Notes under the pieces: model-generated
The model's database searches: none
What the model saw: the letters and a program-made list of their open reading frames with translations, nothing else
What the model was told of the DNA's origin: nothing
Assembly: GCF_000092285.1 (NCBI RefSeq)
Contig: NC_014100.1
Span: forward strand, 2,914,001-2,978,000
DNA: 64,000 nt
Source: Caulobacter segnis ATCC 21756
GTDB lineage: Bacteria; Pseudomonadota; Alphaproteobacteria; Caulobacterales; Caulobacteraceae
Direction of reading: 5' to 3'
Position numbers and translations under genes: made by a program
Part shown: piece by piece, positions 48,068 to 63,909 of the stretch
Numbering within the stretch: position 1 is the first letter of the stretch
Layout: every line of letters begins with the position of its first letter

Positions 48068-48106
48068 GCCCGCCACCCCTTACCCACGAGCGGCGAGCAT
48101 ATATAT

Positions 48107-48123
48107 TGACACAAAGAGTGTCG
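48107..48123. promoter_or_regulatory. Putative TetR operator before the sulfatase operon
   Basis: TGACACAAAGAGTGTCG matches the 44020-44036 palindrome in arms and 5-base spacing, with one end base different. On the minus strand it directly precedes TATATAT, a likely -10, at 48105-48099. Confidence 0.6.
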
Positions 48124-48211
48124 ATAGATGACGCGCTGGCGCGTCCCGTGTTGAACAACCCGCCGCATGATCAACAAAGGTCTTGGGCGAACGGCGGCGG
48201 AGGACTATCCA

Positions 48212-48850
48212 TTGCCCCCAATGCTCACCCAGACCGACGGCGCTCCCGCCATCCCCACACTCAGCGCCGCAGAGCGGGCCCGCAACCGACGCCGGGCGCC
48301 GGTCCGTCGTTTGCGCCTGGGCCTGGCGGTGTTCGCGATCATCATCGGCGGCGCGGTCGTGGGGCAAGCCTCATGGCGCAGCCTGGCTTCGAGCAAGCTG
48401 CAGACCCAGGCCTCCACGACACCGCTTCTGCTGGACAAGCCGCGCTTCACGGGCGTTCTGAAGGATGGCCGCCCGTTCCTGATCACCGCCGACCGCGCCG
48501 AGCGCGACTCGGAAGACGAGGACTTGGTCCGCCTCAGCGCCCCGACCCTCGTCCGCGGCTACGGTCAGCCAGACGCCAGCCAAGCCACGGCCAAGAGCGG
48601 CGTCTATCGCGAGGCCGCCCGTACCCTGCTGCTGACCCAGGACGTGAAGATCACCAACGGCGAAGGCTATGAATTCGACGCGCCGCGGGCCCTGATCGAC
48701 ATGCGCACCGGCGAGGTGAGCGGCGACGCGGGCGTCGCCGGCTCAGGCCCGAACGCCAGCACCCGCGCCAACGCCTATAGCGTCAAGGACAAGGGCGATC
48801 GGGTCATCCTGAATGGTCGCGTGCGCACGCGCCTGGAGCCCCGTCCCTGA
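48212..48850 (+). CDS. LptC-like protein at the head of the sphingolipid operon
   Basis: About 212 residues. One N-terminal membrane span (LRLGLAVFAIIIGGAVVG) then a periplasmic beta-jellyroll-like part (LLLDKPRFTGVLKDGRPFLITADRA, GVYREAARTLLLTQDVKITNGEGYEFDAPRALIDMRTGEVSGD) of the LptC/OstA kind. LptC bridges the LptB2FG pump to LptA. No lptA or lptB is adjacent; instead it leads genes for ceramide synthesis, so it is probably a paralogue for sphingolipid. TTG 48212 is chosen for GGAGGA 7 bases upstream; ATG 48221 or 48167 are possible. Confidence 0.82.
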   Translation: MPPMLTQTDGAPAIPTLSAAERARNRRRAPVRRLRLGLAVFAIIIGGAVVGQASWRSLASSKLQTQASTTPLLLDKPRFTGVLKDGRPFLITADRAERDSEDEDLVRLSAPTLVRGYGQPDASQATAKSGVYREAARTLLLTQDVKITNGEGYEFDAPRALIDMRTGEVSGDAGVAGSGPNASTRANAYSVKDKGDRVILNGRVRTRLEPRP

Positions 48851-48851
48851 C

Positions 48852-49976
48852 GTGCCCAAAAAGCGGGTCTGTTTCCTCTATATCGCGCAACACCATCAGG
48901 TCTGGCACAGCCTGTCGGTGGCCGTCGCCATGGCGCGCGAATGGCCCGACCTGAAGGTCGAGATCGCCGCGACCACGCGCGAACTGCTCGACTACGTCTC
49001 GGGCCTGCTCGCCGAGCTTGGCGGAGCGCCGATCGCTCTCGTGCTACTGCCGCCCGCCTGGATGAGACGGTTCGGCGGCGGCGGCGCGCCGCCCAAGGCG
49101 CCGATGCTGATCGCGAACGCCCTGCGGCTGGGACGCTACGACGCCGTGATCACGCCCGAGCGCACCACCGCCCTCCTCCACAAGCTAGGCGTCCGCCACC
49201 CGATCCTGGTCTACACTCAGCATGGGGCCGGCGATCGCGAAGGTCCTTTCGAGCCCCGCCTGCGCGTCTTCGATCTCGTCATGGCGGCGGGGCCAAAACA
49301 GCGCGACCGGATGATCGGCGAAGGCTGGGTCAAGCCCGAGAACTGCGCCATGGTCGGCTATCCGAAATTCGACCTGGTGGACGCCCTGCCCCGGCGACCC
49401 GGCCCGCGCTTTGAGCGTCCAGGTCCGGTCGTGGTCTACAACCCGCACTTCCATCCCGAGCTCAGCTCCTGGCCCAGGTGGGGTTGGCAGGTTCTGGACG
49501 CCTTCGCCCGCGGCGATCGCCACAACCTGATCTTCTCGCCCCACATCCGCCTGTTCGAGACCGCGTCCAGCGACGATCGCGCCGCCTTCAAGCGTTACGC
49601 CGAGCACCCGCGCATCCACGTCGATCTGGGCGGTCCGGCGGCGGCGGACATGACCTACACGCGCGCCGCCGATCTCTATCTCGGCGATGTCTCGAGCCAG
49701 ATCTACGAGTTCCTGCGCACGCCCAAACCCTGCCTGTTCCTCAACGCCAGCGGCGCCGACTGGCGCGGCGATCCCAGCTTCCATCATTGGCTGTTCGGGC
49801 CCGTGTTGGACGGCGTGGACGCCTTGGACGACGCTGTCGACAGCGCCCTCGCCACCCATGTCGACTTCCGGCCGGCGCAGGCTGAAGGCATCGCCGAAAC
49901 CTTCGACATCACCGAAGAACCGTCATCGCTGCGCGCCGCACGGGCGATCGCGGAGCGGCTGGAGTCACGGGCGTGA
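48852..49976 (+). CDS. GT-B glycosyl/glycerophosphotransferase-like protein
   Basis: 374 residues, no signal peptide. KKRVCFLYIAQHHQVWHSLSVAVAMA starts an N-terminal Rossmann domain, TPERTTALLHKLGVRHPILVYTQHGAGDRE lies in the middle, and the C-terminal domain reads VVVYNPHFHPE, FSPHIRLFE and ADLYLGDVSSQIYEFLRTPKPCLFLN, similar to the CDP-glycerol glycerophosphotransferase/UDP-GlcNAc epimerase-like group. It may add a headgroup to a lipid or glycan. GTG 48852 starts 1 base after the LptC-like stop. Function assigned by fold only. Confidence 0.7.
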   Translation: MPKKRVCFLYIAQHHQVWHSLSVAVAMAREWPDLKVEIAATTRELLDYVSGLLAELGGAPIALVLLPPAWMRRFGGGGAPPKAPMLIANALRLGRYDAVITPERTTALLHKLGVRHPILVYTQHGAGDREGPFEPRLRVFDLVMAAGPKQRDRMIGEGWVKPENCAMVGYPKFDLVDALPRRPGPRFERPGPVVVYNPHFHPELSSWPRWGWQVLDAFARGDRHNLIFSPHIRLFETASSDDRAAFKRYAEHPRIHVDLGGPAAADMTYTRAADLYLGDVSSQIYEFLRTPKPCLFLNASGADWRGDPSFHHWLFGPVLDGVDALDDAVDSALATHVDFRPAQAEGIAETFDITEEPSSLRAARAIAERLESRA

Positions 49977-51352
49977 CGACGGCGCCGGAACACGCGACGT
50001 CGCCGATCAAGCGCGTCCTGGCCAACGCGGGGCAGCTGCTCAGCGGCCGAGTCGTCAACGCCGTGGTGGGATTGGCCTACATCGCCCTGACCGCGCGCAG
50101 CCTCGGCAAGGAGGCGATGGGCGTCCTGGTCCTGATCAACGCCTTCGCCCAGTTCCTGGGCGAGGTGGCGCACTTCCAGTCTTGGCAGACGGTCCTGACC
50201 TACGGAACGGGCCCGCTCCTGGCCAACGAGCGCGTGAAGTTCCAGCAGGTCTTGCGATTCTCACTGCTGCTCGACGGCATTAGCGGCGTACTGGGCGTCG
50301 CCTTGGGCGTGGCTGGCGCGTGGTTCTTCTGGAACGAGTTGCGCTGGCCCGAAGGCATGAGCGGCTATGGCGCGCTGTATGCGCTCTCGATCCCGGTGAT
50401 GAGCTCGGCCACGGGCGTGGGCCTGCTGCGGCTTTTCGACCGCTTCCGCTTCCTGGCGGCGGAGCAGGCGATCAGTTCCTTGGTCCGCATGATCGGCTGC
50501 GGGATCTGCGCCCTGACTCAAGCGCCGCTACCTTATTTCCTGCTGGCCTGGGCGGCGGGAACCTTCGCGTCGTTCTTCTACGTCGCCTCGATCGCGATCT
50601 GGGATTTGAACCGACGGGGCTTGCTGAAGGGGTTTTCGCTTCTGGGTCCGACCAGCCGCGACATGCCGGGCGTCTGGCGCTTCGCCATGGCGACCAATTT
50701 CTCCAGCACTTTGGACGTCGGCTTCACGCACGTCCTGACCATGGTCGTCGGCGCCCTGCTGGGCCCGGCTCAGGCGGCGCTGTGGCGTATCGGCAAGCAA
50801 GTGGCCGATGGCATGGCCAAGCCCGCGCGCCTGATGGTGCCGGCGCTCTATCCGGAGCTCGCCAAGATGCGCGCGTCGGGCGGCCAGCAAGCCATGACCA
50901 AGCTGGCGGTCCAGATCGCCCTGCTCGGCGGCGCGGCGGCCGGCGTGCTGCTGCTGGTCAGCCTCCTAGCGGGTCGTTGGATCCTGGAAACCGTCATGGG
51001 ACAAGCCTTTGGCGCCGCCGCCGGGGTCATGAACTGGCAAGTCGCCGCCGCCGCGATCGGAGTCATGACCTTGCCGCTCGAGCCCATGCTAGTCTCGATG
51101 CGGGCGGCCGGCGCGGCCTTGGTGGTTCGGCTGGTCGTTGTGATCTGCTATTTCGCGGCCCTGGTTCCGCTGATCACGCGGTTTGGCCTGACCGGCGCGG
51201 GCGCGGCTTTGGTCGTATCCGCCTTGGCGATGGCCATCGGCATGTATTTGATGGCGCGCCGCAGGCTCGCCCGACTCGCGGCGGAGGACGACTCCGCGCG
51301 CACGACGAAAGACGATGAAGGCCCCAAGTATGATCACGCCCACGGCGTCTGA
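49973..51352 (+). CDS. MOP/Wzx-like flippase (polysaccharide/lipid exporter family)
   Basis: 459 residues, 12-14 membrane helices. LANAGQLLSGRVVNAVVGLAYIALTARSLGKEAMGVLVLINAFAQ is the standard N-terminus of the Wzx/PST exporters. Starts at GTG 49973 overlapping the previous stop (GTGA), and its 3' end overlaps the acyl-AMP ligase. It may flip a glycosylated lipid across the inner membrane; context suggests a sphingolipid intermediate. Confidence 0.82.
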   Translation: MTTAPEHATSPIKRVLANAGQLLSGRVVNAVVGLAYIALTARSLGKEAMGVLVLINAFAQFLGEVAHFQSWQTVLTYGTGPLLANERVKFQQVLRFSLLLDGISGVLGVALGVAGAWFFWNELRWPEGMSGYGALYALSIPVMSSATGVGLLRLFDRFRFLAAEQAISSLVRMIGCGICALTQAPLPYFLLAWAAGTFASFFYVASIAIWDLNRRGLLKGFSLLGPTSRDMPGVWRFAMATNFSSTLDVGFTHVLTMVVGALLGPAQAALWRIGKQVADGMAKPARLMVPALYPELAKMRASGGQQAMTKLAVQIALLGGAAAGVLLLVSLLAGRWILETVMGQAFGAAAGVMNWQVAAAAIGVMTLPLEPMLVSMRAAGAALVVRLVVVICYFAALVPLITRFGLTGAGAALVVSALAMAIGMYLMARRRLARLAAEDDSARTTKDDEGPKYDHAHGV

Positions 51353-53033
51353 CCGCACCGTTCGGTTCGCCGACTTCCCGACCCTGACCCAGGCCCTCGA
51401 TTTCGCCGCGACCGGCGAGACGGGGATCAACCTCTATTCGCTGCGCGGCGAACTGGTCGAGGCCCTGCCCTACGCCAAGCTCCGGGAGGACGCCCAGGTC
51501 CTGGCCCGCCGGCTGCTGGCGACCGGCGCCAAGGTCGGCGACAGCGTCGCTTTGCTGGCCGAGACGGACGGCGACTTCGTGCGGGCGTTCTTCGCCTGCC
51601 AGTACGCCGGCCTGTTGCCCGCGCCCATGGCGCTGCCGACTCCTTTGGGGGGGCGCGAGGCCTATATCGAGCAGATCACCAACCTGGCCCGTTCGGCCAA
51701 GGCTAGGATCCTGCTGGGCCCGGTCGGCCTGAAGGACTGGGTGGCCGAGATCGGCCAGCGCGCGAACCTGGACTTCGCCGGCGTCCTGGCGGACCTGCCG
51801 GAGGACGGCGGCGCGGCCTTGCCGACCATCACGCCGGAAGACCCCTGCTACCTGCAGTTCTCGTCGGGCAGCACGCGCACCCCGACCGGCGTCCTGGTCC
51901 TTCACAAGGCCCTGATGGCCAACTGCGTGGCGATCACGCGCGATGGGCTGCAGGTGAAGCCGGCGGACCGCGCCATCTCGTGGCTGCCGCTCTACCACGA
52001 CATGGGCCTGATCGGCTTCCTGCTCAGCCCCCTGAGCTGCCAGATGTCGGTCGACCTGCTGCCCACGGGCGCCTTCGTCCGCCGCCCGCTGCTGTGGATC
52101 GACCTGATCGGCCGCAACAAGGCCACCATCGCCTACAGCCCCACCTTCGGCTACGAGCTGTGCGCCCGCCGCGTCCAGGGCCAGCCGCTGGACGCCTATG
52201 ATCTGTCGCATTGGCGCAGCGCCGGCCTTGGGGGCGACATGATCCGCATGCCGCCGCTGAAGGCCTTCGTTGAGGCGTTCGGCCCCGCCGGCTTCTCCGA
52301 TAAGGCGTTCGTCGCCAGCTATGGCATGGCCGAGGCGACCCTGGCCCTGTCGATGGCGCCGCTGGGCAAGGGCCTTCGCGCTGAAACTCTCGACGTGGAG
52401 CGCCTGGAGCGCGACGCCCTGGCTGTCGACGCGCCCGAAGGCTCCGAACGCGCCCGCGACTTCGCCCGGTGCGGCCCCGCCCTGCCCGATCACTTCCTGG
52501 AAGTGCGCGGCGAGGACGGTCAGGTCCTGCCGGAGCGCGGCGTGGGCCGCATCTTCGCCAAAGGTCCCTCGGTCATGAGCGGCTACTTCGCCAATCCGGA
52601 GGAGACGGCGCGCGTGCTGTCGGCCGACGGCTGGCTGGACACCGGCGACCTCGGGTTCAAGATCGAGGGCGAAATCGTCATCACCGGTCGCGCCAAGGAC
52701 CTGATCATCCTGAATGGCCGAAACATCTGGCCGCAGGACCTGGAATGGACCGCCGACCACGAGATCGACGGCCTGCGTAGCGGCGACGTCTGCGCCTTCG
52801 CGATCCCCGCCGAGCCGGAAGACCAAATCGTGGTGCTGGTCCAGGCGCGCGGCGGCGACGCCGACACCCGCGCGGCCCTGGTCGAGCAGGTCGCAACCCT
52901 GCTGCGCACCCGCCACGGCGTGGAAGCCAAGGTGAAGCTGGTCGGCGCCCACGCCCTGCCGCAGACTTCCTCGGGCAAGCTCAGCCGCTCGAAGGCTCGC
53001 GCGGCCTATCTGGCCGGAGCCTATGGAGACTGA
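51330..53033 (+). CDS. Fatty acyl-AMP ligase / acyl-ACP synthetase for ceramide synthesis
   Basis: About 567 residues of the FAAL/adenylate-forming class. AMP-binding blocks are YLQFSSGSTRTPTGVLVLH (P-loop), SWLPLYHDMGLIGFLL, YSPTFGYELC, ASYGMAEATLALSMAP, and WLDTGDLGFKIEGEIVITGRAKDLIILNGRNIWPQDLE. It activates fatty acid and should load the dedicated acyl carrier protein downstream. In C. crescentus the homologue (CC_1165, from memory) is one of five genes needed for ceramide. ATG 51330 (AAGG upstream) or ATG 51315 are possible starts; both overlap the flippase gene. Confidence 0.88.
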   Translation: MITPTASDRTVRFADFPTLTQALDFAATGETGINLYSLRGELVEALPYAKLREDAQVLARRLLATGAKVGDSVALLAETDGDFVRAFFACQYAGLLPAPMALPTPLGGREAYIEQITNLARSAKARILLGPVGLKDWVAEIGQRANLDFAGVLADLPEDGGAALPTITPEDPCYLQFSSGSTRTPTGVLVLHKALMANCVAITRDGLQVKPADRAISWLPLYHDMGLIGFLLSPLSCQMSVDLLPTGAFVRRPLLWIDLIGRNKATIAYSPTFGYELCARRVQGQPLDAYDLSHWRSAGLGGDMIRMPPLKAFVEAFGPAGFSDKAFVASYGMAEATLALSMAPLGKGLRAETLDVERLERDALAVDAPEGSERARDFARCGPALPDHFLEVRGEDGQVLPERGVGRIFAKGPSVMSGYFANPEETARVLSADGWLDTGDLGFKIEGEIVITGRAKDLIILNGRNIWPQDLEWTADHEIDGLRSGDVCAFAIPAEPEDQIVVLVQARGGDADTRAALVEQVATLLRTRHGVEAKVKLVGAHALPQTSSGKLSRSKARAAYLAGAYGD

Positions 53034-53961
53034 GTCCAGAGGCGTCGTCGCCGTCACCGGCGCCACGGGCTTCCTGGGCCGTCACCTGGTCCGCGCCCTG
53101 GCCGAAGACGGCTGGACGCCGCGGGTCCTGGTCCGCCGAGATCCGATCCACCCGCTTTGGCGCGACTTCGAAGTCGAAGTCGTGGCCGGCGACCTCAAGA
53201 CGCCTGGCGCCCTGCAGCGGCTTAGCGAGGGCGCCAGCGTCGTGATCCACGTGGCGGGGCTGATCAAGGCCACGTCACTGGAAGGCTTCAACACCGTCAA
53301 TCGCGACGGCGCCCTGGCGGCCGCGCGCGCCGCGCGAGAGGCAAGCGCCCGCTTCATCCTGGTTTCGAGCTTGGCCGCCCGCGAACCGGCGCTGTCGAAC
53401 TACGCCGCCAGCAAGCGCGCCGGGGAAGACGCGGTGCTGGCCGAGACGCCGCATGCGCTGATCGCTCGCCCGCCGGCGATCTATGGACCCGGCGACACCG
53501 AGACCCTGGAAGTCTTCAAGCTCGCCGCGAGCAGCCCGTTTCTGCCTGTGCTTTCGCCGACCTCTCGCGTCGCCATGATCCACGTCCAAGACGCTGCGGC
53601 GCAGCTTGCGAACTACTGCAAAAGTCCAAGTTCGGGCCTGGTAGAGCTGTCGGATGTGCGGCGCGACGGTTACACTTGGGCGGAAATCATGAGCGCCGCC
53701 GCAGCGGTCATGGGCCGAAATCCAAGGCTGATAAGGCTTCCAGCGGGGGGCGTCCTAGCCGCCGGAGCCCTTGCGGATGCTTGGTCTTTCGTCAGCCAAA
53801 CACCCACCGTCTTCGGTTTTGGCAAGGCCAGGGAGTTGCTTCACGCCGATTGGACCCCATCTAGCGCTCCGAGGGCGGAGGGAGTACCCAGCGTATTCGG
53901 TCTGCTTGACGGGTTCGCTCACACCGTCGAGTGGTATCGGAAACAGGGCTGGCTGCCCTAA
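53023..53961 (+). CDS. cerR: NAD(P)-dependent epimerase/reductase family, probable ceramide reductase
   Basis: 312 residues of the extended SDR family. VAVTGATGFLGRHLVRAL gives the nucleotide-binding GxxGxxG (residues 13-19), and SSLAAREPALSNYAASKRAGE the YxxxK pair (Tyr127, Lys131). In Caulobacter the gene at this position reduces the 3-keto group in ceramide formation. Its ATG overlaps the ligase stop by 11 bases. The last 120 codons use many rare codons (AGG, ATA, CTA, GTA, CCA), unlike the first two thirds. Confidence 0.87.
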   Translation: METESRGVVAVTGATGFLGRHLVRALAEDGWTPRVLVRRDPIHPLWRDFEVEVVAGDLKTPGALQRLSEGASVVIHVAGLIKATSLEGFNTVNRDGALAAARAAREASARFILVSSLAAREPALSNYAASKRAGEDAVLAETPHALIARPPAIYGPGDTETLEVFKLAASSPFLPVLSPTSRVAMIHVQDAAAQLANYCKSPSSGLVELSDVRRDGYTWAEIMSAAAAVMGRNPRLIRLPAGGVLAAGALADAWSFVSQTPTVFGFGKARELLHADWTPSSAPRAEGVPSVFGLLDGFAHTVEWYRKQGWLP

Positions 53962-54053
53962 AATTTCATCGCCTTGCGCAAATGAGGCGGCTATCTGACA
54001 GACTCGCCGTTACAGTAGTGTCACGGGTGGGGCTCCCGGAGGTTTGATCTAGA

Positions 54054-54305
54054 ATGGAAACGGTGACGGATCTCAGCTTACGCGAGATCGGGGTAGCGGC
54101 GAGCAAGGTTCTGGGGCGGCCGGTCGAGGTTCGCGCCGAGTCGCACATTGGCCGTGACCTCGCCGTGGACTCCCTGGCCCTCATGAACATCATCATGGAG
54201 CTCGAAGACACCTTCGACATCTCCATTCCCTTGGATCGCCTGGCTTCGGTCGAAACCGCCGGCGACCTTTCCAAACTGATCAACGATCTCCGGACTAGGG
54301 CTTAA
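54054..54305 (+). CDS. acpR: Dedicated acyl carrier protein for sphingolipid synthesis
   Basis: 83 residues. The phosphopantetheine site is Ser40 in RDLAVDSLALMNIIMELED, with the usual four-helix ACP pattern (FDISIPLDRLASVETAGDLSKLI). It carries the acyl chain used by serine palmitoyltransferase, whose gene begins 3 bases after its stop. GGAGG lies about 11 bases before ATG 54054. The 92-base gap upstream is less GC-rich and contains a GACTC (CcrM) site at 54001. Confidence 0.9.
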   Translation: METVTDLSLREIGVAASKVLGRPVEVRAESHIGRDLAVDSLALMNIIMELEDTFDISIPLDRLASVETAGDLSKLINDLRTRA

Positions 54306-54308
54306 CTA

Positions 54309-55523
54309 ATGGGGCTATTCGATAAGCACCTGGCCTATCGCGATGCGTACAAGGCCATCCAAGACGCCGGCGCCGACCCGTTCAAGGTCCGCTTCGACGC
54401 GGTGCATTCGCCGACCGAAGGCGTCGTGGACGGTCGTCCGACCATTCTGCTCGGCACCAACAACTACCTTGGCCTGACCTTCGACGAGCAAGCCATCGCC
54501 GCGTCGGTGAAAGCGGTACAGGAACGCGGTACGGGCACCACGGGTTCCCGCATCGCCAACGGCAGCTTCGAAGCCCACGTCGAGCTCGAGCAGGAACTGG
54601 CCAAGTTCTACGGCCGCAAGCACGCCATGGTCTTCACGACCGGCTACCAGGCCAATCTGGGCGTGCTGTCGACCCTTGTCGGCCGCGGCGACCATCTGAT
54701 CCTCGACGCCGACAGCCACGCCTCGATCTACGACGCCTCGCGTCTGGGCCAGGCCGAGGTCATCCGCTTCCGCCACAACGACCCCGAAGACCTGGCCAAG
54801 CGCCTGCGTCGCCTGGGCGATGCGCCGGGCGAGCGCCTGATTGTGGTCGAAGGCGTCTATTCGATGATCGGCGACGTCGCGCCGCTGAAGGAAATCGCGG
54901 CCGTAAAGCGCGAGCTGGGCGGCTACCTCTTGGTGGACGAAGCCCACTCGATGGGCGTGCTCGGCGCCACGGGCCGCGGGCTGGCCGAAGCGGCGGGCGT
55001 GGAAGAGGACGTCGACTTCATCGTCGGCACCTTCTCCAAGAGCCTGGGCGCCATCGGCGGCTTCTGCGTCTCGAACATGGACGACTTCGACGTCATGCGC
55101 GTCGTCTGCCGCCCCTACATGTTCACCGCCTCGCTGCCGCCCGCCGTGGTCGCCTCGACCATCACGGCCCTGCGCCGCATGATCGAGCAGCCGCAGCTGC
55201 GCGACCGCCTGAACCACAACGCCAAGCGCCTGTATGACGGCCTGACGTCGCTGGGCTTCCACACCGGCCCGACGGCCAGCCCCGTGGTCGCCACGACCAT
55301 GCCGGACCAGGAGCGCGCCATCGCCATGTGGAACGCCCTGCTGCACGCCGGCGTCTACCTGAACCTGGCCCTGCCGCCCGCCACGCCGGACAGCCGTCCG
55401 CTGCTGCGCGCCAGCGTCAGCGCCGCTCACACCGACGAGCAGATCGACGCGGTCCTCAAGACCTTCGCCGAAATCGGCGCGGCCCTCGGCGTCATCGAGC
55501 CGCTCAAGCGCGCCCGCGCCTGA
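54309..55523 (+). CDS. spt: Serine palmitoyltransferase
   Basis: Condenses serine with a long-chain acyl thioester to 3-ketosphinganine, the first step of sphingolipid synthesis. 404 residues of the alpha-oxoamine synthase family. PLP lysine 244 is in VGTFSKSLGAIGGF; DEAHSMGVLGATGRG holds the PLP-binding Asp; ILLGTNNYLGLTF and GTGTTGSRIANGSFEAHVELE are family blocks. It is soluble, as in other bacteria. A strong terminator follows. Confidence 0.95.
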   Translation: MGLFDKHLAYRDAYKAIQDAGADPFKVRFDAVHSPTEGVVDGRPTILLGTNNYLGLTFDEQAIAASVKAVQERGTGTTGSRIANGSFEAHVELEQELAKFYGRKHAMVFTTGYQANLGVLSTLVGRGDHLILDADSHASIYDASRLGQAEVIRFRHNDPEDLAKRLRRLGDAPGERLIVVEGVYSMIGDVAPLKEIAAVKRELGGYLLVDEAHSMGVLGATGRGLAEAAGVEEDVDFIVGTFSKSLGAIGGFCVSNMDDFDVMRVVCRPYMFTASLPPAVVASTITALRRMIEQPQLRDRLNHNAKRLYDGLTSLGFHTGPTASPVVATTMPDQERAIAMWNALLHAGVYLNLALPPATPDSRPLLRASVSAAHTDEQIDAVLKTFAEIGAALGVIEPLKRARA

Positions 55524-55548
55524 GACCGCTCCCATTGCTGAAAACGAG

Positions 55549-55577: not shown

Positions 55578-55592
55578 GTTTGGGCGAGAGGG

Positions 55593-56474
55593 TCACGAGG
55601 CCCTGCGCCTCCCCTTCCAGACCTTCAGCAGCACCCTGGGCGCGGACAGTATCGGGTGCCGCTCCCGCCAGGGCGTGACCTCGATCTCGACCCCCGTGTG
55701 CCGCTCGATCTTCCAGGCGGCGTAGCGCGCGGCGCCCTGGAAGGTGAAGGCGGCCTTCACCAGCCGGGCGACGTTCAGGGGCTTGCCCATCAGCCTGCGA
55801 GGCCCCCAAGCCTTGCGCAGGCGCGTCCGCTCCGCAGGATCCAGCGCTCCGCCCTGATCGTCCAGAACGGCTGTCATCACGTGGTCGTAGCGCTCGGGAT
55901 CGTAGGCCAGAATCGACGCCTCGCGCCCAGCCTTCTCCACGCGCAGCTCGGCCTTGTAGGTCTCCTGGAAAAGCGCCGTCCACAGCGCGCGCGGGGCGCC
56001 GCCCGCCGGGCCCAGGGCCTGGGCGAAGCGCGCTGCGGTCCGGCAGGCCTCCGCGACAGCGTCGACCACCTGATCGCGGACGCCCGCAGAAGCCCAGACC
56101 AGGGCGCTGGGCTGGACGAACCGCGCCCAGATGGTCGTGTCCGCCCCCGCCCCGCTCACCGCCCGCTGGAACTGGGCGAGCGTCATGGAGGCGACCTTGG
56201 CTCGCAGCGTTTCGCCGTCATGAACCAGCTCGTGATAGCTGACGTCCGGCCACAGGATGCGCGTGAAGAACCCCCGCCAACCGGCCGGCGGCCGCTCGGT
56301 CAGGACGTAGTAGTCGAGCACGCCGGAGAGATCGCCCGTCCGCAGGATCGAACCGTAGAATAGCACCGCCCGCACCTCCGGAAAAACGCCGGTCAGATGC
56401 TCGGCGAAGGCGGTGATCGGCGCTGGGAGCGGCGTGGCGAGTTCGGCCGCGACGAGGTCGCGCAGGCGGTTCAT
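55593..56474 (-). CDS. Nucleotidyltransferase-fold protein of the ceramide-phosphoglycerate operon (CpgC position)
   Basis: 293 residues. The segment EVRAVLFYGSILRTGDLSGVLDYYVL resembles the GS-x(n)-D of minimal nucleotidyltransferases, followed by helices with FARFVQPSALVWAS-like sequence and a basic C-terminus KVWKGRRR. It is third in the operon, with ATGA overlap on the kinase gene. From memory, C. crescentus CpgA, CpgB and CpgC (three adjacent genes next to spt) make ceramide phosphoglycerate; position makes this CpgC. Its own reaction is not shown by the sequence. Confidence 0.78.
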   Translation of the reverse strand: MNRLRDLVAAELATPLPAPITAFAEHLTGVFPEVRAVLFYGSILRTGDLSGVLDYYVLTERPPAGWRGFFTRILWPDVSYHELVHDGETLRAKVASMTLAQFQRAVSGAGADTTIWARFVQPSALVWASAGVRDQVVDAVAEACRTAARFAQALGPAGGAPRALWTALFQETYKAELRVEKAGREASILAYDPERYDHVMTAVLDDQGGALDPAERTRLRKAWGPRRLMGKPLNVARLVKAAFTFQGAARYAAWKIERHTGVEIEVTPWRERHPILSAPRVLLKVWKGRRRAS

Positions 56475-57388
56475 CCGACCAGGAACCTCAAGGCCGGACC
56501 CAGGGCGATGACCAGTTCGCCGCCTTCGAACACTTCACCGTCCAGAACGAAGGGCGCGCAGCCCGCCAGACCGACCATGTCGGGATCGCGGCGACGATAG
56601 CCCATGCTCTCCAGCTTGGGCTCCGCCCGGCCGCTGAGCACCAGCGGCAGAGCCTTCAGCAGCTTCCGGGGCGGCGCATCGACGTCCAGGATCTTGAGGC
56701 CCTCGCGCGGCTCGCCGAACGGCTTCAAGCCGAACGGCAAGCGCTTCAGGGCCGTGGCGACAATGGCGAACCGCTCGTCGCCCGGCTGGGCCTGGCCGTC
56801 GAAGGTCAGCTTAGCCGGCACGCCCTCGCGCCACTCGTCACGCGCGCCGCCGAACAGCGCCCCGAAGGTGGCGGTGGCGATCGTCACGCCGACCGCCAGA
56901 TTGTGGAAGAAGCCGACCTTGTGGACCTTCTGGGACAGGTTGGTCGCCTTCACCAGAGCCCCGACACCGAAGAAGAAGCCTTGCAGGCAAGGCCGATGAC
57001 CATCGACCCAGCTGATCCGCAGCGGCGGTCGCGATTTGATCCGCGGCTCGGTCTGTCGCGCGGCGTTCAGCGCTTCCTCCAGTCGCCAATCGCGCTGCGT
57101 GCCCAGATCGATCGCCAGCACATTGGTCTTGCCCGACGGCAGCACCGCCAGCAGCGGCAAGTCTTCGCCGAAGGTGTGCGGCAGCAGGCTGATCACGTCG
57201 CGCACCGTGCCGTCGCCGCCGTCGATGACCAGAAGGTCGAGACCGTCGCGAGCGAAGTCTTCGAGAACCGTCCTCAGGGCGTCGCGACCGAACGGCTCGG
57301 CCAACCGCACCCCCTCGGGCGTCGGCCCGGGCGGGTTGATCCGATTGCCGTGGCTCTTCGGATTGCGAATGACCGCGATGCGACTCAT
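56471..57388 (-). CDS. cpgB: Diacylglycerol-kinase-family ceramide kinase
   Basis: 305 residues. The N-terminus RIAVIRNPKSHGN and LLVIDGGDGTVRDVISLLPH (GGDGT, residues 57-61) define the DAGK/sphingosine kinase fold; LLAVLPSGKTNVLAIDLG follows. Phosphorylates ceramide with ATP, the first step of anionic headgroup formation. Matches the bacterial ceramide kinase CpgB described in Caulobacter by family and position beside spt. Both ends overlap neighbours by ATGA. Confidence 0.88.
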   Translation of the reverse strand: MSRIAVIRNPKSHGNRINPPGPTPEGVRLAEPFGRDALRTVLEDFARDGLDLLVIDGGDGTVRDVISLLPHTFGEDLPLLAVLPSGKTNVLAIDLGTQRDWRLEEALNAARQTEPRIKSRPPLRISWVDGHRPCLQGFFFGVGALVKATNLSQKVHKVGFFHNLAVGVTIATATFGALFGGARDEWREGVPAKLTFDGQAQPGDERFAIVATALKRLPFGLKPFGEPREGLKILDVDAPPRKLLKALPLVLSGRAEPKLESMGYRRRDPDMVGLAGCAPFVLDGEVFEGGELVIALGPALRFLVG

Positions 57389-58527
57389 TTTGACAGCCAA
57401 GATTGGATCGAGCCCTTGGGCGCGGCCAAGCCCTGCAGAATTTGAACGGCGTGCACGATGAAGCACGCGGCGGTCCAGATCGCCACCAGGGTGAAGCCGA
57501 CATCCGGGCGACCTACCAACGCGCAGGCCGTCATCAGGATCAAGTTCGGGTTTCTACGGGCGGTGATCAGACGGAAGAAGCTGTCGAAGGGCCGCCAGGC
57601 GTGCATCTCCAACTTGAAGAGGGCCAGGAAGATCCCCTCCTCCACGCGCTGGGCGACATAGCCGCCGATCACGATCGCCAGGCTGAGCTCCGCATACGGG
57701 ATGGATTGGCCGACGGCGTAGACGCCGACGAACCAGGCCCACCACCAGAAGGGCGGATGGAGCAGGTCGATGCCGTGATCGAAGACGTTGCCCCATTTCG
57801 ACGAGGTCAGGGTCACGCGGGCCAGCTTGCCGTCGACGGTGTCGAGGAAGGTCATGATCCAGGCGAAGACCAGACCCCAGCCGAACTGGCCATGCCAGAA
57901 CAGCCAGGTGGCCGCCAGGGTCAGCAGGAATCCGATGAACGTCACCTGGTTGGGCGTCATCTTGGCCAGCGCGCACCAGCGGGTCACCACGCGCGCGGGC
58001 GCGGGCCAGACGTACTTGGTCACCAGATCGGTGACCCCCTTGTAGGAGCCCTGGAACAGCCGCTTCTCGACCGCGCGAACGGTCTCGGGCGTCAGTCGCT
58101 CCAGAACCGGCGGCTCACGCTTGCGCAAGGCGCTGTTATAGGCCGAACCCAGCTCCAGCGCGGTCAGGCGGGTCAGGCGCGCGTCCAGGCCGGACGGGTC
58201 CCGCCCGGCGGCCAAAGCCTCCGCGGCGGCGTAGGCCAGGTCGGCAGGCGCGTGAGCGGCCACCGCGCGCCCCGCGTCATCGACCAGCACAGCGCCTTCG
58301 CGGCCCGCCAGGGCCTTGACCAGCGCCTCGTCGAACACCCAGCCGGCGTCGACCACGACGACCGCGTGCGAAAGGTCCACGGCCGGCGTCTCGACCAGGC
58401 CCAGACGCCGATAGATGCGAGACAGGCGCTCGCGCGAGGTCATGCCCCAGATGCGGCCGCCAGCCTCGCCGACGGTGACCGCCCTCGGGCCGCCCGCGCC
58501 GGCCATGTTTTGAATTTCAGCGCTCAA
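57385..58527 (-). CDS. CDP-alcohol phosphatidyltransferase with nucleotidyltransferase-like N-terminus (CpgA position)
   Basis: About 380 residues. The CDP-alcohol motif D-x2-DG-x2-AR-x8-G-x3-D-x3-D is complete in FLDTVDGKLARVTLTSSKWGNVFDHGID (about 240), within several membrane helices. The first 150 residues resemble sugar-phosphate cytidylyltransferase domains (RIWGMTSRERLSRIYRRLGL) but lack the usual LAAG start, so that half may be non-catalytic. First gene of the operon. TTG 58527 or ATG 58506 are possible starts. It probably transfers an alcohol phosphate to a ceramide-derived acceptor. Confidence 0.82.
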   Translation of the reverse strand: MSAEIQNMAGAGGPRAVTVGEAGGRIWGMTSRERLSRIYRRLGLVETPAVDLSHAVVVVDAGWVFDEALVKALAGREGAVLVDDAGRAVAAHAPADLAYAAAEALAAGRDPSGLDARLTRLTALELGSAYNSALRKREPPVLERLTPETVRAVEKRLFQGSYKGVTDLVTKYVWPAPARVVTRWCALAKMTPNQVTFIGFLLTLAATWLFWHGQFGWGLVFAWIMTFLDTVDGKLARVTLTSSKWGNVFDHGIDLLHPPFWWWAWFVGVYAVGQSIPYAELSLAIVIGGYVAQRVEEGIFLALFKLEMHAWRPFDSFFRLITARRNPNLILMTACALVGRPDVGFTLVAIWTAACFIVHAVQILQGLAAPKGSIQSWLSK

Positions 58528-58604
58528 GAACCGATATACCCCTTGAATCCCGCGCCGATTGATAAGCAGCTTCGGCTGTTTCGACCAGAACGACCCGAAA
58601 GATC

Positions 58605-59513
58605 TTGTCCATTTACCGCATCGCCCACCTGTCCGACCCCCACCTGCCGCCGCCGCCCGGCGCGTTTGGGTGGAAGGACGTGTTCACCAAGCGCCTCCTG
58701 AGCCGCATCGCCTGGCGCAAGAAACGCAAGGTTCATCGTCCCGAAGTCCTGTCGGCGCTGGTGGCCGACCTGAAGGCCTCCGCGCCCGATCATGTGGTGA
58801 TTAGCGGCGATCTCACCAACTTCGCTTCGCATACGGAGATTGCCGCCGCTCGCAAGTGGCTGGAATCTCTCGGGGAGCCAACCGACTTCACCGTCAGTCC
58901 CGGCAACCACGACGCCTTGGCCGGCGCGGGCGGCCCCGAGCGTTTCGCCATCTGGGCGCCCTGGCTGGGCGACGACGGCGAGAGCCGTTTCCCCCAGGTC
59001 CGGTTGCGCGGCCCCGTCGCGATCTTCAACCTTTGCTCGGCTGTGCCGACCGCGCCGCATCTGGCCACCGGCCGCCTGGGCGAAGAACAGCTTCGGAAAC
59101 TGGACGCGGCCCTGGCCGATCCGGCTTACGACGGCTTCTTCAAGCTCGTCGTTCTGCACCACCCGCCACACGAGGGCGCGGTCTCCAAGCGCAAATCGCT
59201 TGATGACGGCCACGCCCTGCGCGAGGTGCTGGAGCGGCGCGGCGCCGATCTTGTGCTGCACGGCCACGCCCACGAGGCCCTGCTCGGCGCGTTGAGGGGT
59301 CCGGATGGCGCGACGGTCCCCGTGCTGGGCGTTCCCTCCGCTTCGGCCCGTCCGAACCGGCATGGCCCGGCGCGATGGAATGCGATCGAGATCGAGCCTC
59401 GCGCCGCCGGCGGCTTCGACGTCCGCATCGTCTCGCGCGGGATCGAGGCGGGCCGCGAAGGCCTAACCGAACTGGGCCGCTTCAGCCTGTCTAGCGCGGA
59501 TAGCGGACCTTGA
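58605..59513 (+). CDS. Calcineurin-like metallophosphoesterase
   Basis: 302 residues. Two-metal site: HLSDPHL (DxH), VISGDLTNFAS (GD), SPGNHDALAG (GNHD), VVLHHPPHEG and LVLHGHAHEALLG (GHxH). It hydrolyses phosphomonoesters or diesters. Divergent from the cpg operon, with an 77-base gap, so it may turn over a sphingolipid or nucleotide intermediate, which is speculative. TTG 58605 is the start giving the normal N-terminus. Confidence 0.9.
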   Translation: MSIYRIAHLSDPHLPPPPGAFGWKDVFTKRLLSRIAWRKKRKVHRPEVLSALVADLKASAPDHVVISGDLTNFASHTEIAAARKWLESLGEPTDFTVSPGNHDALAGAGGPERFAIWAPWLGDDGESRFPQVRLRGPVAIFNLCSAVPTAPHLATGRLGEEQLRKLDAALADPAYDGFFKLVVLHHPPHEGAVSKRKSLDDGHALREVLERRGADLVLHGHAHEALLGALRGPDGATVPVLGVPSASARPNRHGPARWNAIEIEPRAAGGFDVRIVSRGIEAGREGLTELGRFSLSSADSGP

Positions 59514-59982: not shown

Positions 59983-60045
59983 CTAAAACGCGGCATCCCT
60001 ATTGTTACGCCCAGGCGACACCGGCCTGAAGTTCCCGGCTTTCTC

Positions 60046-60483
60046 ATGACCAATCCCACCGCCCTGGCGTTCGGCTATCCCGGTTCGAAGATCGCGGAGA
60101 CCGATCACTGGCTGATTCTGCTCCGCCCCAAGCAGCCGACATTTGGGTCTTTGGTGCTGGTGTGCAAGGAAACCGTTCAGGCGTTCTCCGAAGTGAGTCC
60201 CGCCGCCTTCGCGGACCTGCAGGTGGCGGTGACGGGTATCGAGCGTTTGCTGAGGGCCCAGGTCGACTACGAGAAGATCAATTACCTGATGCTGATGATG
60301 GTCGACAAAGACGTCCATTTCCACGTGCTGCCGCGCTATGCCGGCGTTCGCGAGCACGAGGGCCTGGCCTTCCCGGACGCAGGCTGGCCCGCGGCGCCCG
60401 CCCTGGGTTCGGCCGTTGAGCTGTCGCCCGACGCCGTCGAACGCCTCGCCGCGCGCTTCGCCCAGGCCTGGGGCCAAGCGTGA
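60046..60483 (+). CDS. HIT-family (histidine triad) protein
   Basis: 145 residues. The triad region reads DKDVHFHVLPRYAG (HxHx), preceded by GSLVLVCKETVQAFSEVSPAAFADLQVAVTGIERLL. HIT enzymes hydrolyse nucleoside phosphoramidates or dinucleoside polyphosphates. First gene of an overlapping chain leading to LptF/LptG-like proteins and ceramide synthase; its stop overlaps the next GTG (GTGA). Confidence 0.87.
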   Translation: MTNPTALAFGYPGSKIAETDHWLILLRPKQPTFGSLVLVCKETVQAFSEVSPAAFADLQVAVTGIERLLRAQVDYEKINYLMLMMVDKDVHFHVLPRYAGVREHEGLAFPDAGWPAAPALGSAVELSPDAVERLAARFAQAWGQA

Positions 60484-61697
60484 GCGCCAAGAAGATGTCC
60501 GCCGGCCCCATGCGGCTGATCGACCGTTACCTGCTGCGCCTGCTGTTCTGGCCGCTGGTCGGCTGCCTGGGCGTGACGGTCGTCGCCTTGCTGCTGGAGC
60601 GCATCTTGCGGCTCCTCGACGCCCTGTCGCAGAGCAGCGCGCGGTTCGGCTACGTCGCGCAACTGGCCGCCAACCTGGTGCCGCACTATCTCGGCCTCGC
60701 CCTGCCGGTGGCCTTCTTCGTGGCGCTGTTCATCGTCATCGCGAAGCTGTCGGACGGCTCCGAGGTTGACGCCCTGCTGGCCAGCGGGCAATCGCTGGAG
60801 CGGATCGCCGCGCCCTTCCTGGCGGTCGGCCTGTTCCTCAGCGTCTTCAGCCTGATCGTCTTCGGCTACATGCAGCCGTACAGCCGCTACGCCTACCGCG
60901 CCGTGATGCACGCGGCGATCAACGCCGGCTGGAACGGACGCTTGGCGGGCGGCGCCTTCATCGACGACAAGGGCTCGCTGCTGACGGCCGACAGCGCCGA
61001 CATCGCCGGCCAGAGCCTGACCCGGGTCTTCATCCGCCGCCTCGACGCCAAGGGGCGCGAAGAGATCATCACCGCCGGCTCGGCCAATCTGAAGATGGAT
61101 CCCGGCGGCAAGACCGTGACCATGGATCTGCGCGATGGTCGCCGCATCGTGCGCGACGACAATGGCCAATATCGCAACCTCGCCTTCAACAGCCTGACCA
61201 CGCAGACGCCGCTGGCGGCGGCCGCGGTGCTGCTGCGCGACCGCGGCGGCGACGAGCGTGAGCTGACCCTGGGCGAGCTGGCCACGCAGGCCAAGTCGCC
61301 CCATCCGGTGGTCTCGAAGAGCACCCTGCTGAGTGAGCTCTACGGACGCCTGGCCCGCGCGGCCTTCTTGCCGTTCCTGCCGCTGCTGGCCTTCCCGCTG
61401 GGCCTGGCCTCCAAGCGCGGCAACCGAGCGGCGGGCCTGATCATGGCCGGCGTCCTGCTGCTGGCCTTCCAGCACGCCCTGCTTCTGGGACAGAGTCTCG
61501 CCAAGGCCGACAAGGTGGCGGCGGCGCCGGCGATCTGGATTCCGTTCGCCCTGTTCTCGAGCTTCGCCGTCTGGCTTTTCCTGGGCAGCCGCACGCGTCC
61601 GGGCGATACGCCTGTCTCGCGGCTGGTCCGCCGTATCAACAACCTGGTCACGCGCCTGGTGCGCGCCCTGCCTCTGCCCAAGCGACAACCCGCATGA
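60480..61697 (+). CDS. LptF-like permease in the ceramide synthase operon
   Basis: About 405 residues. RLIDRYLLRLLFWPLVGCLGVTVVALLLERILRLLD and GLALPVAFFVALFIVIAKLSDGSEVDALLASGQS are the YjgP/YjgQ family blocks, with a periplasmic beta domain between helices 3 and 4 and a further three helices at the end. With LptG it forms the channel of a lipid-extracting ABC transporter. GTG 60480 overlaps the HIT stop; ATG 60510 is also possible. Operon partners suggest sphingolipid rather than LPS as cargo. Confidence 0.87.
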   Translation: MSAKKMSAGPMRLIDRYLLRLLFWPLVGCLGVTVVALLLERILRLLDALSQSSARFGYVAQLAANLVPHYLGLALPVAFFVALFIVIAKLSDGSEVDALLASGQSLERIAAPFLAVGLFLSVFSLIVFGYMQPYSRYAYRAVMHAAINAGWNGRLAGGAFIDDKGSLLTADSADIAGQSLTRVFIRRLDAKGREEIITAGSANLKMDPGGKTVTMDLRDGRRIVRDDNGQYRNLAFNSLTTQTPLAAAAVLLRDRGGDERELTLGELATQAKSPHPVVSKSTLLSELYGRLARAAFLPFLPLLAFPLGLASKRGNRAAGLIMAGVLLLAFQHALLLGQSLAKADKVAAAPAIWIPFALFSSFAVWLFLGSRTRPGDTPVSRLVRRINNLVTRLVRALPLPKRQPA

Positions 61698-62755
61698 AGC
61701 TGCAGCTCTACGTCCTGCGGACCGTCGCCACCCGAATCCTGGGCGCGGCGCTGATCCTGATGTCCATCCTGCAGATCCTTGACCTGCTGGACGTGACTAC
61801 CGACATCCTGGACCGGGGCCTGGGCATGGCGGGCGTCGCCTACTACGCCGCCCTGCGCCTGCCCCGCCTGTTCGAGCAGGTCGCTCCGATCGCGGTCCTG
61901 GCCGGCGGCCTCTTCGCCTTCTCGCAGCTGGCGCGCGAAAGCGCCGTGGTCGCCATGCGGGCCAGCGGCATCTCCGGATACCGCATCGTCGGGATGGCCA
62001 TGCCGGCCGTGATCGCCGTCATGCTGCTGGACGCGCTCTGCGGCCAGGTCCTGGCGCCACGCTCCGATCCGACCCTGGCGGACTGGTGGCGGAACACCAC
62101 GCCGGTCGCCGAGCGCAAGGCGCCCTCGCCCCGCACCTTCCGGGCGGGTTCCGATCTCGTCATCGGGGCGGACGCCTCGGCGGATGGGCGCGAGATCACC
62201 AGCCTCACCATCTTCCGCCGCAACGCCAAGGGCATCCTCGTCGAAAAGGTCGAGGCGTCGAAGGCGCTCTACGATGGTCGCCGCTGGACGCTCCAAAGCC
62301 CCAAGACGACCCGCTTCGCCGGCGACCTCGCCCAGACCTCGACGGCGGCGTCGATCAACTGGCCGACGGCTCTGCGACCGCAAGACGTGCAGGGCCTGTT
62401 CGGCGACGACAGCGCGCCCACCGCCGCCACGGCTCGCCGCGCGCTGGAGAACGGTGGTTCGGATAGGCCGGAGAGCTTCTACGCCACCCACTTCCAGTCC
62501 GCGTTCGCCAGCCCGTTCGTCTCTCTGGTCATGCTGCTGCTGAGCGCGCCCGTCGCCCTCGCCAACTTCCGCAGCGGCCAGGGCGCGGTCCTGCTGACGG
62601 CCGGCCTTGGCGCTGGCCTCCTCTTCCTGGTGGCGAACGGGATGCTGACCGCCCTGGGCGAGTCCGGCGCCTTGTCGCCCTTGCTGGCCGTCTGGGCCGC
62701 TCCCGCCATCTTCGGCGCGCTGGCGGCGCGCACCTTCTTGGCCCTGGAGGGGTGA
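61694..62755 (+). CDS. LptG-like permease in the ceramide synthase operon
   Basis: 353 residues. LQLYVLRTVATRILGAALILMSILQILDLLDVTTDIL and PIAVLAGGLFAFSQLARESAVVAMRASGISGYRI are typical of the LptG side of the pair; a periplasmic domain and three C-terminal helices follow. ATG 61694 overlaps the LptF-like stop (ATGA), and its stop abuts the ceramide synthase start (TGATG). No LptB ATPase gene is in the window, so it would share the housekeeping one. Confidence 0.88.
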   Translation: MKLQLYVLRTVATRILGAALILMSILQILDLLDVTTDILDRGLGMAGVAYYAALRLPRLFEQVAPIAVLAGGLFAFSQLARESAVVAMRASGISGYRIVGMAMPAVIAVMLLDALCGQVLAPRSDPTLADWWRNTTPVAERKAPSPRTFRAGSDLVIGADASADGREITSLTIFRRNAKGILVEKVEASKALYDGRRWTLQSPKTTRFAGDLAQTSTAASINWPTALRPQDVQGLFGDDSAPTAATARRALENGGSDRPESFYATHFQSAFASPFVSLVMLLLSAPVALANFRSGQGAVLLTAGLGAGLLFLVANGMLTALGESGALSPLLAVWAAPAIFGALAARTFLALEG

Positions 62756-63909
62756 TGCCTTTCGACTCCACGAACGCCGACCTTCAGGTCATCCCGGTCA
62801 AGACGCCGGACGAGCTTAAGCGCTTCATCGTCCTGCCCGCCCGGCTCAACGCCAAGGATCCCAACTGGATCACGCCGCTTTTCATGGAGCGGACCGAGGC
62901 CCTGACGCCGAAGACCAACCCGTTCTTCGCCCACGCCGAGGTGCAGCTGTTCCTGGCGACGCGCGGCGGCCGCGACGTCGGACGGATCAGCGCCCAGATC
63001 GACCACCTCACCCCTCAGCCGACGCCCGGGCGCTTGGACGGTCACTTCGGCATGATCGCGGCCGAGGACGACGCGGCGGTTTTCCAGATTCTTTTCCGCA
63101 CGGCCGAGGACTGGCTGAGCGCGAAAGGCCGCACCCACGCCGTCGGGCCCTTCAACCTGTCGATCAACGAAGAGGTCGGCCTGCTGGTCCACGGCTTCGA
63201 CACGCCGCCGATGGTGCTGATGGGCCACGACCCGGTCTACGCCGGCAAGCGGATCGAGGAGCAGGGCTACGTCAAGGCCCAGGACCTGTTCGCCTACAGG
63301 GCCGACGAGACCGGCGACATTCCCGAGATCGCCCAGCGCCGCGTCAAGCGCGGCCTGCCCGCCGGCGTCGTCCTGCGGCAGCTGGACTGGAAGCGCTATG
63401 ACGAGGAGGTCGCCACCCTGACCGACATCCTCAACGACGCCTGGAAAGACAATTGGGGCTTCACCCCGACCACCGAGGCCGAGACGCGTCAGCTGGCCAA
63501 AGCCCTCAAGCAGGTGATCGACAAGCGCCTGGTCTGGTTCGCCGAGATCGACGGAGAACCGGCCGGCGTCGTCGTCTTCCTGCCGAACGTCAACGAAGCC
63601 ATCGCCGACCTGAACGGCAAGCTCCTGCCGTTCGGATGGGCCAAGCTGCTGTGGCGCCTGAAGGTCAAGGGCGTGAAGTCGGCGCGCATCCCGCTGATGG
63701 GCGTCAAGCGCAAGTTCTCGACCACCCAGCGCGGCCGCATGCTGCCCTTCTGGATGATGAAGGCCAGTCGCGACACCGCGATCGGGCTTGGTTACAACCG
63801 GTTCGAAATCTCGTGGGTGCTCGAGGCCAACACGGCCATGACCCACATCGCCGAGAACGTCGGCGGCACGCACTACAAGACCTATCGCGTTTACGAGAAG
63901 GCTCTGTGA
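62755..63909 (+). CDS. Bacterial ceramide synthase (bCerS), acyltransferase-like
   Basis: 384 residues. LKRFIVLPARLNAKDPNWITPLFMERTEALTPKTNPFFAHAEVQLFLATRGGRDVGRISAQ begins a double GNAT-like protein; VGPFNLSINEEVGLLVHGFDTPPMVLM and EISWVLEANTAMTHIAENVGGTHYKTYRVYEK are its conserved blocks. It matches the position and type of CC_1154, described as N-acylating sphinganine to ceramide independently of eukaryotic CerS. ATG 62755 is preferred over GTG 62752. Coupled to the LptG-like gene. Confidence 0.85.
   Translation: MPFDSTNADLQVIPVKTPDELKRFIVLPARLNAKDPNWITPLFMERTEALTPKTNPFFAHAEVQLFLATRGGRDVGRISAQIDHLTPQPTPGRLDGHFGMIAAEDDAAVFQILFRTAEDWLSAKGRTHAVGPFNLSINEEVGLLVHGFDTPPMVLMGHDPVYAGKRIEEQGYVKAQDLFAYRADETGDIPEIAQRRVKRGLPAGVVLRQLDWKRYDEEVATLTDILNDAWKDNWGFTPTTEAETRQLAKALKQVIDKRLVWFAEIDGEPAGVVVFLPNVNEAIADLNGKLLPFGWAKLLWRLKVKGVKSARIPLMGVKRKFSTTQRGRMLPFWMMKASRDTAIGLGYNRFEISWVLEANTAMTHIAENVGGTHYKTYRVYEKAL

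Follow-up and report, generated by a model that had tools for sequence, protein, structure and literature searches.

We analyzed a window of 64,000 nucleotides from Caulobacter segnis ATCC 21756 (bases 2914001–2978000 of the closed 4.66 Mb genome), whose ceramide region (48167–63909) carries genes for LptC-, LptF-, and LptG-family proteins, here called LptC2 (48167..48850), LptF2 (60480..61697), and LptG2 (61694..62755), all on the forward strand. With a probability of roughly 85%, these three proteins make up the inner-membrane portion of an exporter that is dedicated to sphingolipids and constructed on the plan of the lipopolysaccharide (LPS) exporter. Genomes that encode bacterial ceramide synthase (bCerS) and lack lipid A genes keep only the LptF–LptG type found in the window, and it is from this retention that we infer a sphingolipid as the transported substrate. 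The pattern supports the original prediction, made from the sequence of the window, of a second Lpt-type bridge that moves ceramide lipids to the outer membrane. What was observed directly comprises the genes with their clade and copy-number pattern, together with the fact that they are retained in genomes without lipid A genes.

Passages of two papers give the route of bacterial sphingolipids to the outer membrane as unknown (PMC11324152, PMC11087976). Our interpretation is supported but not new: the original prediction had allowed for recent work on such a Caulobacter system, and a proposal for C. crescentus is indeed in print. According to passages of that paper, Olea-Ozuna et al. (2024) named C. 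crescentus CC_1168, CC_1156, and CC_1155 LptC2, LptF2, and LptG2 and proposed that they move phosphosphingolipids from the inner to the outer membrane by analogy with LPS transport, while stating that transport had not been investigated; the ceramide region of the window holds the same gene set (PMC11324152). Relative to those passages, the new elements are the pattern in lipid A-less genomes, the test of the clade, the counts of LptA, LptB, and LptD, and the second recruitment described below. A literature search, with preprints and most subscription papers outside its range, found no published test of transport by the window-type module (hereafter Lpt2) and no report of the lipid A-less pattern. 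If the interpretation is true, exchanging LptF and LptG alone is enough to switch the substrate of an essential envelope machine, with consequences for the evolution of the outer membrane, for Caulobacter cells that live without LPS, and for many 'LPS export' annotations.

Lpt-family genes of the window and their phylogeny

The first run of genes in the ceramide region comprises LptC2, a GT-B-fold protein, a MOP-type flippase, an acyl-AMP ligase, the ceramide reductase CerR, an acyl carrier protein (ACP), and the serine palmitoyltransferase Spt. Head-group genes follow Spt, and the last run consists of a HIT-domain gene, LptF2, LptG2, and bCerS, with overlapping stop and start codons. An LptC-like gene thus leads the operon with acyl-AMP ligase and CerR, as had been described; the start given for it earlier, 48212, is an in-frame TTG downstream of the ATG at 48167. 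The permease genes had also been described as fused by overlapping stops to ceramide synthase. The overlaps are real, with ATGA at 61694–61697 at the LptF2/LptG2 junction and the LptG2 stop TGA at 62753–62755 overlapping the bCerS start (GTG 62752 or ATG 62755), but the genes overlap and are not fused. Single frames containing both LptF2 and LptG2 domains were seen in L040, L046, L053, L056, L060, and L062, apparently natural LptF2–LptG2 fusions in several Caulobacteraceae loci.

Family searches placed LptC2 in PF06835 (72 bits against a cut-off of 21), with a single N-terminal hydrophobic segment at residues 51–69, and LptF2 and LptG2 in PF03739 (218.9 and 239.4 bits against a cut-off of 27.9). 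None of the three reached the equivalog cut-offs for LPS export (TIGR04407, TIGR04408, TIGR04409), with LptF scoring 186.2 of 230 bits, LptG 223.9 of 240, and LptC 34.9 of 38. The best relatives in the PDB were an LptG chain for 61694–62755 (3.6e-13) and an LptF chain for 60480–61697 (4.8e-10); LptC2 had no real relative among PDB sequences, its single match, at E 0.83, being due to chance. The set resembles the LptB2FGC LPS exporter of E. coli and Shigella in its LptC, LptF, and LptG families, in the LptF coupling-helix glutamate, in the presence of LptB in the genome, and in six hydrophobic segments each in LptF2 and LptG2, two of those in LptG2 overlapping. LptF2 and LptG2 are nevertheless only 18.5–20.7% identical to the LPS-type proteins of their own genome and of E. 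coli (18.5% and 20.3%, respectively, to their own genome's partners). By comparison, LptC2 shares 39% identity over 174 residues with the other LptC of the genome (LptC1) and therefore looks like a later duplication; other Lpt2 genomes of our sample seem, from their gene content, to use one LptC.

The genome contains four LptF/LptG genes, forming two pairs, and two LptC genes. The search for further copies that had been suggested with the original prediction thus found a second lptC, lptF, and lptG elsewhere, and the possibility that the window holds the genome's only Lpt set was rejected. The second LptF–LptG pair (C1:2504130–2506336) is followed by lptD (C1:2507319) and surA, and a pepA-like gene (identified by eye) lies upstream on the opposite strand, as in E. 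coli, where pepA adjoins lptF. A search with the LPS-type LptF of this pair against E. coli DNA found nothing. The second lptC belongs to an lptC-lptA-lptB cluster (C1:4476561–4478433), in which C1:4476561–4477766 is the sole place where lptA and lptB were detected, in line with the earlier statement that neither adjoins the window's genes. LptB (49 of 63 candidates scored), LptD, and the LptA/LptD_N family gave one match each in the genome, so that Lpt-type bridge parts are available. With a single LptA, LptB, and LptD detected, the window would supply an alternative inner-membrane set that would have to use the ATPase, bridge, and translocon jointly with the LPS system, as had been anticipated for LptB and perhaps LptA.

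For wider comparison, LptF/LptG, bCerS, LpxC, and LptC were searched in the same set of 144 alphaproteobacterial genomes, and 80 named bCerS loci were collected, 32 of whose genomes were searched whole. Among the named loci, 61 of 80 have an LptF/LptG-family domain in the stretch, which extended up to 10 kb on each side, and the location of LptFG beside ceramide genes is therefore not due to chance; 16 of the 19 stretches without such a domain are shorter than 21 kb.

For the phylogenetic trees, 115 LptF–LptG protein pairs were taken from 37 sample genomes, the named genomes, 21 of the 80 named bCerS loci used directly, and E. coli, the other named rows coming from the 32 genomes searched whole. 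The trees omit L177 and L174 (additional matches in G018 and G072), three loci that are cut or have one domain (L041, L067, and L072), the contig end of G022 (L145), and the four matches of Chenggangzhangella (G160), which are fragments of one disrupted pair. In the FastTree of the joined alignment, 52 of the 115 pairs, including that of the window, formed one clade, Lpt2, with a support of 0.93; 55 pairs were LPS-type and 8 formed a third lineage. The same 52 of 52 rows were recovered by LptF-only and LptG-only FastTrees with modest supports (0.81 and 0.64). A quick IQ-TREE run (mixture model, 73 rows) placed the 32 Lpt2 rows on one side of a branch with an SH-aLRT of 100, although such a run with long rows deserves less trust according to the tool's own warning. 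Among the members of Lpt2 are pairs linked to bCerS from alpha-, beta-, and gammaproteobacteria, such as those of Methylopila, Roseospira, Variovorax, Ramlibacter, and Hydrocarboniphaga. bCerS was absent from the fetched stretches of all 55 LPS-type pairs, and every SurA-linked pair was LPS-type, with the limit that many stretches of named LPS-type pairs are only 2.6–3.9 kb long and linkage is not visible there. The comparison by phylogeny that had been called for thus places the window pair in a clade apart from LPS-type LptFG and linked to ceramide genes, as expected of a sphingolipid-type Lpt module (LptC2F2G2 sensu PMC11324152).

The LptF coupling-helix glutamate E84 (E. coli numbering), an LptB contact (PMC5548808), is invariant in 115 of 115 pairs, the window's LptF2 included, and LptG E88 is kept in 55/55 LPS-type, 8/8 third-type, and 44/52 Lpt2 sequences. 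PHY at positions 57–59 is among the marks common to most Lpt2 LptF proteins and absent from the LPS-type. A basic residue at LptG position 40 occurs in 41 of 54 LPS-type versus 2 of 51 Lpt2 sequences, and at position 41 an acidic residue stands in 34 of 51 Lpt2 sequences; the rows behind the Fisher values for these positions are related and hence not independent. In the Shigella structure, LPS is contacted by LptG K40, at the 4'-phosphate, and by LptG K41 (PMC6744409). Because the LptG double mutant K40E/K41E grows normally in an E. coli test strain (PMC5548808), loss of these lysines was rejected as proof of a changed substrate, with which the shift would nonetheless be consistent.

The third lineage comprises eight pairs (Nitrospirillum, Acidocella, Immundisolibacter, and others) and lies close to the LPS-type pairs of beta- and gammaproteobacteria. 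Seven of the eight lie in a stretch around a bCerS gene, and in one Nitrospirillum and one Acidocella locus the pair sits between acyl-AMP ligase and spt. Third-lineage pairs are located at L061:16881–19167, L073:17836–20101, L055:8903–11202, L057:15007–17207, L105:12833–15024, and L103:9696–11812. A single lineage uniting Lpt2 with the Nitrospirillum/Acidocella pairs was rejected (AU p 5e-5, for a group named after the tree had been seen). On these trees, at least two independent acquisitions of an LptFG pair by ceramide clusters seem to have occurred.

Distribution in genomes with and without lipid A genes

Of the 144 sample genomes, 24 gave a bCerS match; 23 count as bCerS-positive once the partial match of G053 (E 3e-9) is set aside. 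LpxB was tested in 43 of the 144 genomes, including all 23 that lack LpxC, and in six others, and LptA, LptB, and LptD were tested in those 43. The statistics ignore kinship; the eight genomes with two pairs span seven families and the 12 lipid A-less ones described below span nine.

Eight of the 10 genomes with both LpxC and bCerS had at least four LptF/LptG genes (the fifth match in G022 stems from a gene divided between contigs), the remaining two (G028 and G064) having two. Among genomes with LpxC and without bCerS, only 1 of 111 (G018) had four (Fisher 4e-10, not corrected for kinship). The extra pair of G018 (G018:C2:499772–501927, L177) is a very divergent member of the LptF/LptG family, scoring 76–82 bits.

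Genomes without LpxC separated further. Of the 13 that have bCerS, 12 contained exactly two LptF/LptG genes and one (G055) contained none. Of the 10 that lack bCerS, five were without LptFG and five had two or three matches; all five of the latter have LpxB and therefore probably still make lipid A. LpxB was absent from 12 of the 13 bCerS-positive, LpxC-negative genomes, the 13th (G047) showing a weak match of 105 bits. All 11 sample genomes with LptFG and with neither LpxC nor LpxB have bCerS.

In the 12 LpxC-negative, bCerS-positive genomes with LptFG, the sole pair was of the Lpt2 type (12/12) and lay within about 5 kb of bCerS (12/12). Bridge parts were found in the same genomes, with LptA, LptB, and LptD in 12/12 and LptC in 10/12. 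Among 25 examined genomes with a lipid A gene, 21 have LptD next to an LptFG pair, against 0 of these 12, as counted by hand from match positions and compared by a Fisher test; the LPS-type pair is therefore the one missing from the 12 lipid A-less ceramide genomes. One of the 12 is a Sphingomonas (G010) whose LptF shares 99% identity with the S. qomolangmaensis protein, and passages of a published account describe sphingomonads as bearing surface sphingolipids instead of LPS (PMC11165598). Such lipid A-less genomes, Sphingomonas with its one LptFG pair among them, make the question of export directly testable.

The 32 named genomes showed LPS-type together with Lpt2 pairs in 22 cases, LPS-type together with third-type pairs in four, the LPS-type pair only in three (Rhodanobacter and two Methylotenera), and the third type only in one (Immundisolibacter). 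Hansschlegelia plantiphila has one LptFG pair, an Lpt2 pair beside bCerS, and lacks both LpxC and LpxB; the only other of the 32 without LpxC is a Nevskia metagenome-assembled genome (MAG), in which LpxB is present. Chenggangzhangella (G160) has one disrupted LptFG pair beside bCerS, an LpxC-like match of 181 bits only, and no LpxB. A second, divergent LpxC (226–231 bits) was seen in Methylopila (G153 and G154).

Proposed export model and alternative explanations

We infer the substrate, the direction of transport, the formation of a complex, and the sharing of LptA, LptB, and LptD for the Lpt2 module as follows. LptB2F2G2, with LptC2, would load anionic ceramide lipids onto a shared LptA–LptD bridge. 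Judging from its modelled structure, the MOP-fold protein of the operon would be a fitting flippase for the ceramide lipid, after which LptF2/LptG2 with LptB would extract the lipid and LptC2 would receive it. Recognition of a ceramide anchor with an anionic head, rather than of one head group, is suggested because Sphingomonas and Caulobacter share Lpt2. Passages of earlier work place bCerS and Spt in the cytoplasm and CerR in the periplasm, with no flippase or transporter identified (PMC11087976). Published cofitness values quoted in passages of PMC11324152 link the CC_1168 mutant with spt (0.52) and with CC_1159 (0.78), and CC_1156 with CC_1159 (0.60).

Beyond the window, we think it fairly likely that Lpt is a general exporter of outer-leaflet lipids with exchangeable inner-membrane heads, approximately one LptFG pair per class of surface lipid and LptB, LptA, and LptD shared, and that different LptFG stocks provided ceramide clusters with a head of this kind on at least two occasions. 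The whole Lpt bridge would then serve sphingolipids alone in lipid A-less Alphaproteobacteria such as Sphingomonas, and the 'LPS export' annotations of these bacteria would name the wrong substrate.

Several observations weigh against sphingolipid export by Lpt2 or against its generality. G028, G064, Rhodanobacter L36, and the two Methylotenera combine bCerS and LpxC with an LPS-type pair only, Immundisolibacter combines LpxC with a single third-lineage pair, and G018 has its four LptF/LptG genes without bCerS. G055, an Enhydrobacter-like alphaproteobacterium of 5.4 Mb in a single contig, gave no match for LptF/G, LptC, LptA, LptD, LpxC, or LpxB and none for LptB at E 1e-60, yet it carries a ceramide locus with bCerS, Spt, CerR, and acyl-AMP ligase (G055:C1:1497500–1517400; L250, L188), its bCerS being 100% identical to an Enhydrobacter protein. 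The bCerS genomes without Lpt2 and the absence of Lpt genes from G055 therefore do not allow Lpt to be taken as a universal route. LptC2 is not general, as 9 of the 10 sample genomes with LpxC and bCerS show one LptC by Pfam, and the LptG E88 position is Ala in 8 of 52 Lpt2 sequences, including the window's LptG2. The count of LptB is the least sure, with 49 of 63 candidates scored in the window's genome and no LptB match in the control genome G001, which carries LpxC, LptD, and a pair of the LPS type. In the relevant passages of PMC11324152 the cofitness values are moderate, CC_1156 and CC_1166 are missing from the list given for spt, and CC_1155 is without cofitness data. Co-location with bCerS could reflect transfer as a cluster, and support for export is genomic in kind, transport itself being deduced from it.

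The alternative that survives best, although we consider it unlikely, is that the cargo of Lpt2 is limited to certain sphingolipids, such as those bearing a phosphoglycerate head group, or is a different lipid produced by genes in these clusters. Nine of the 12 lipid A-less loci have both a CC_1160- and a CC_1161-type gene no more than about 20 kb from the pair (the exceptions being G010, G078, and G125), no CC_1159–1161 homologue occurs in the 14–21 kb at the bCerS loci of the Lpt2-less Rhodanobacter, Immundisolibacter, and two Methylotenera, and cofitness as reported in passages of PMC11324152 ties CC_1168 and CC_1156 most strongly to CC_1159. Sphingomonas G010 and its family-mate G125, however, have Lpt2 without CC_1160- or CC_1161-type genes in the vicinity searched, and the description of sphingomonads as having sphingolipids in place of LPS likewise speaks against a restricted cargo. 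Distinctly less probable is an outer-membrane route of another kind, such as AsmA/TamB-type bridges, with Lpt2 accessory or regulatory; G055 would need one if its ceramide lipids reach the outer membrane, but LptFG together with LptA, LptB, and LptD is retained in 12 of 13 LpxC-less ceramide genomes. Least probable by a narrow step is a second LPS exporter, as a spare copy or for modified lipid A, merely travelling with the ceramide cluster: Lpt2 belongs to the same protein family, several of its Sphingomonas members carry the NCBI name 'LPS export ABC transporter permease LptF', and LPS-type and Lpt2 pairs occur together in LPS-making genomes, but Lpt2 is kept as the sole pair by 11 sample genomes that have neither LpxC nor LpxB, the curated LPS-export models are not reached, and a second pair is nearly absent from LpxC genomes that lack bCerS.

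Other genes of the ceramide region

Between LptC2 and Spt, all genes lie on the forward strand. The GT-B-fold protein (48813..49976), in the position of CC_1167 by gene order, matched no Pfam family; its AF2 model (pLDDT 69.9, from three sequences) matched UDP-GlcNAc 2-epimerase/GT-B structures with a best E of 1.1e-10 and a TM of about 0.5. Homologues of this protein were seen near bCerS in Belnapia and in a Burkholderiales MAG. Passages of PMC11324152 call CC_1167 probably unrelated, yet give it cofitness values of 0.57 with spt and 0.54 with CC_1159. The candidate flippase of the MOP superfamily (Wzx/MurJ-like; 49973..51352), in the position of CC_1166, had an AF2 model with a pLDDT of 89.4 that matched MATE, MurJ, and WzxE structures at TM values mostly of 0.55–0.75; the protein itself had no Pfam match, and both orthologues tested matched PF01943.

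The AasR-type fatty acyl-AMP ligase (51315..53033) was identified by PF00501 and by NCBIfam NF006624 (903 bits), and Spt (54309..55523) by NCBIfam NF047599 (686 bits, cut-off 500). Between them lie a putative CerR-type ceramide reductase of the epimerase/SDR family (53023..53961; PF01370), whose role is suggested by gene order, and an 83-residue open reading frame (ORF) that is probably an AcpR-type ACP, judged by eye and gene order (54054..54305).

Three candidate head-group genes follow on the reverse strand, each assigned by gene order: one in the position of CC_1161 with no Pfam family (55593..56474), a candidate DAGK-family ceramide kinase in that of CC_1160 (56471..57466; PF00781), and a putative CDP-alcohol phosphotransferase in that of CC_1159 (57385..58527; PF01066). 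On the forward strand are a predicted metallophosphoesterase, likewise placed by gene order at CC_1158 (58605..59513; PF00149), the HIT-domain protein (60046..60483; PF01230), and bCerS (62752..63909), which probably starts at ATG 62755. Its nearest relatives are from Caulobacter; to one that is 88% identical, NCBI gives the name 'ceramide synthase [Caulobacter sp.]'.

A second bCerS-like gene, 68% identical, was found in the same genome (G000:C1:3335881–3337011, reverse strand; L029/L191), with no other ceramide-cluster gene in the 12 kb fetched around it. Adjoining the LptC2 operon on the reverse strand (45396–48076), two ORFs resemble, by eye, a sulfatase and a formylglycine-generating-enzyme-type protein.

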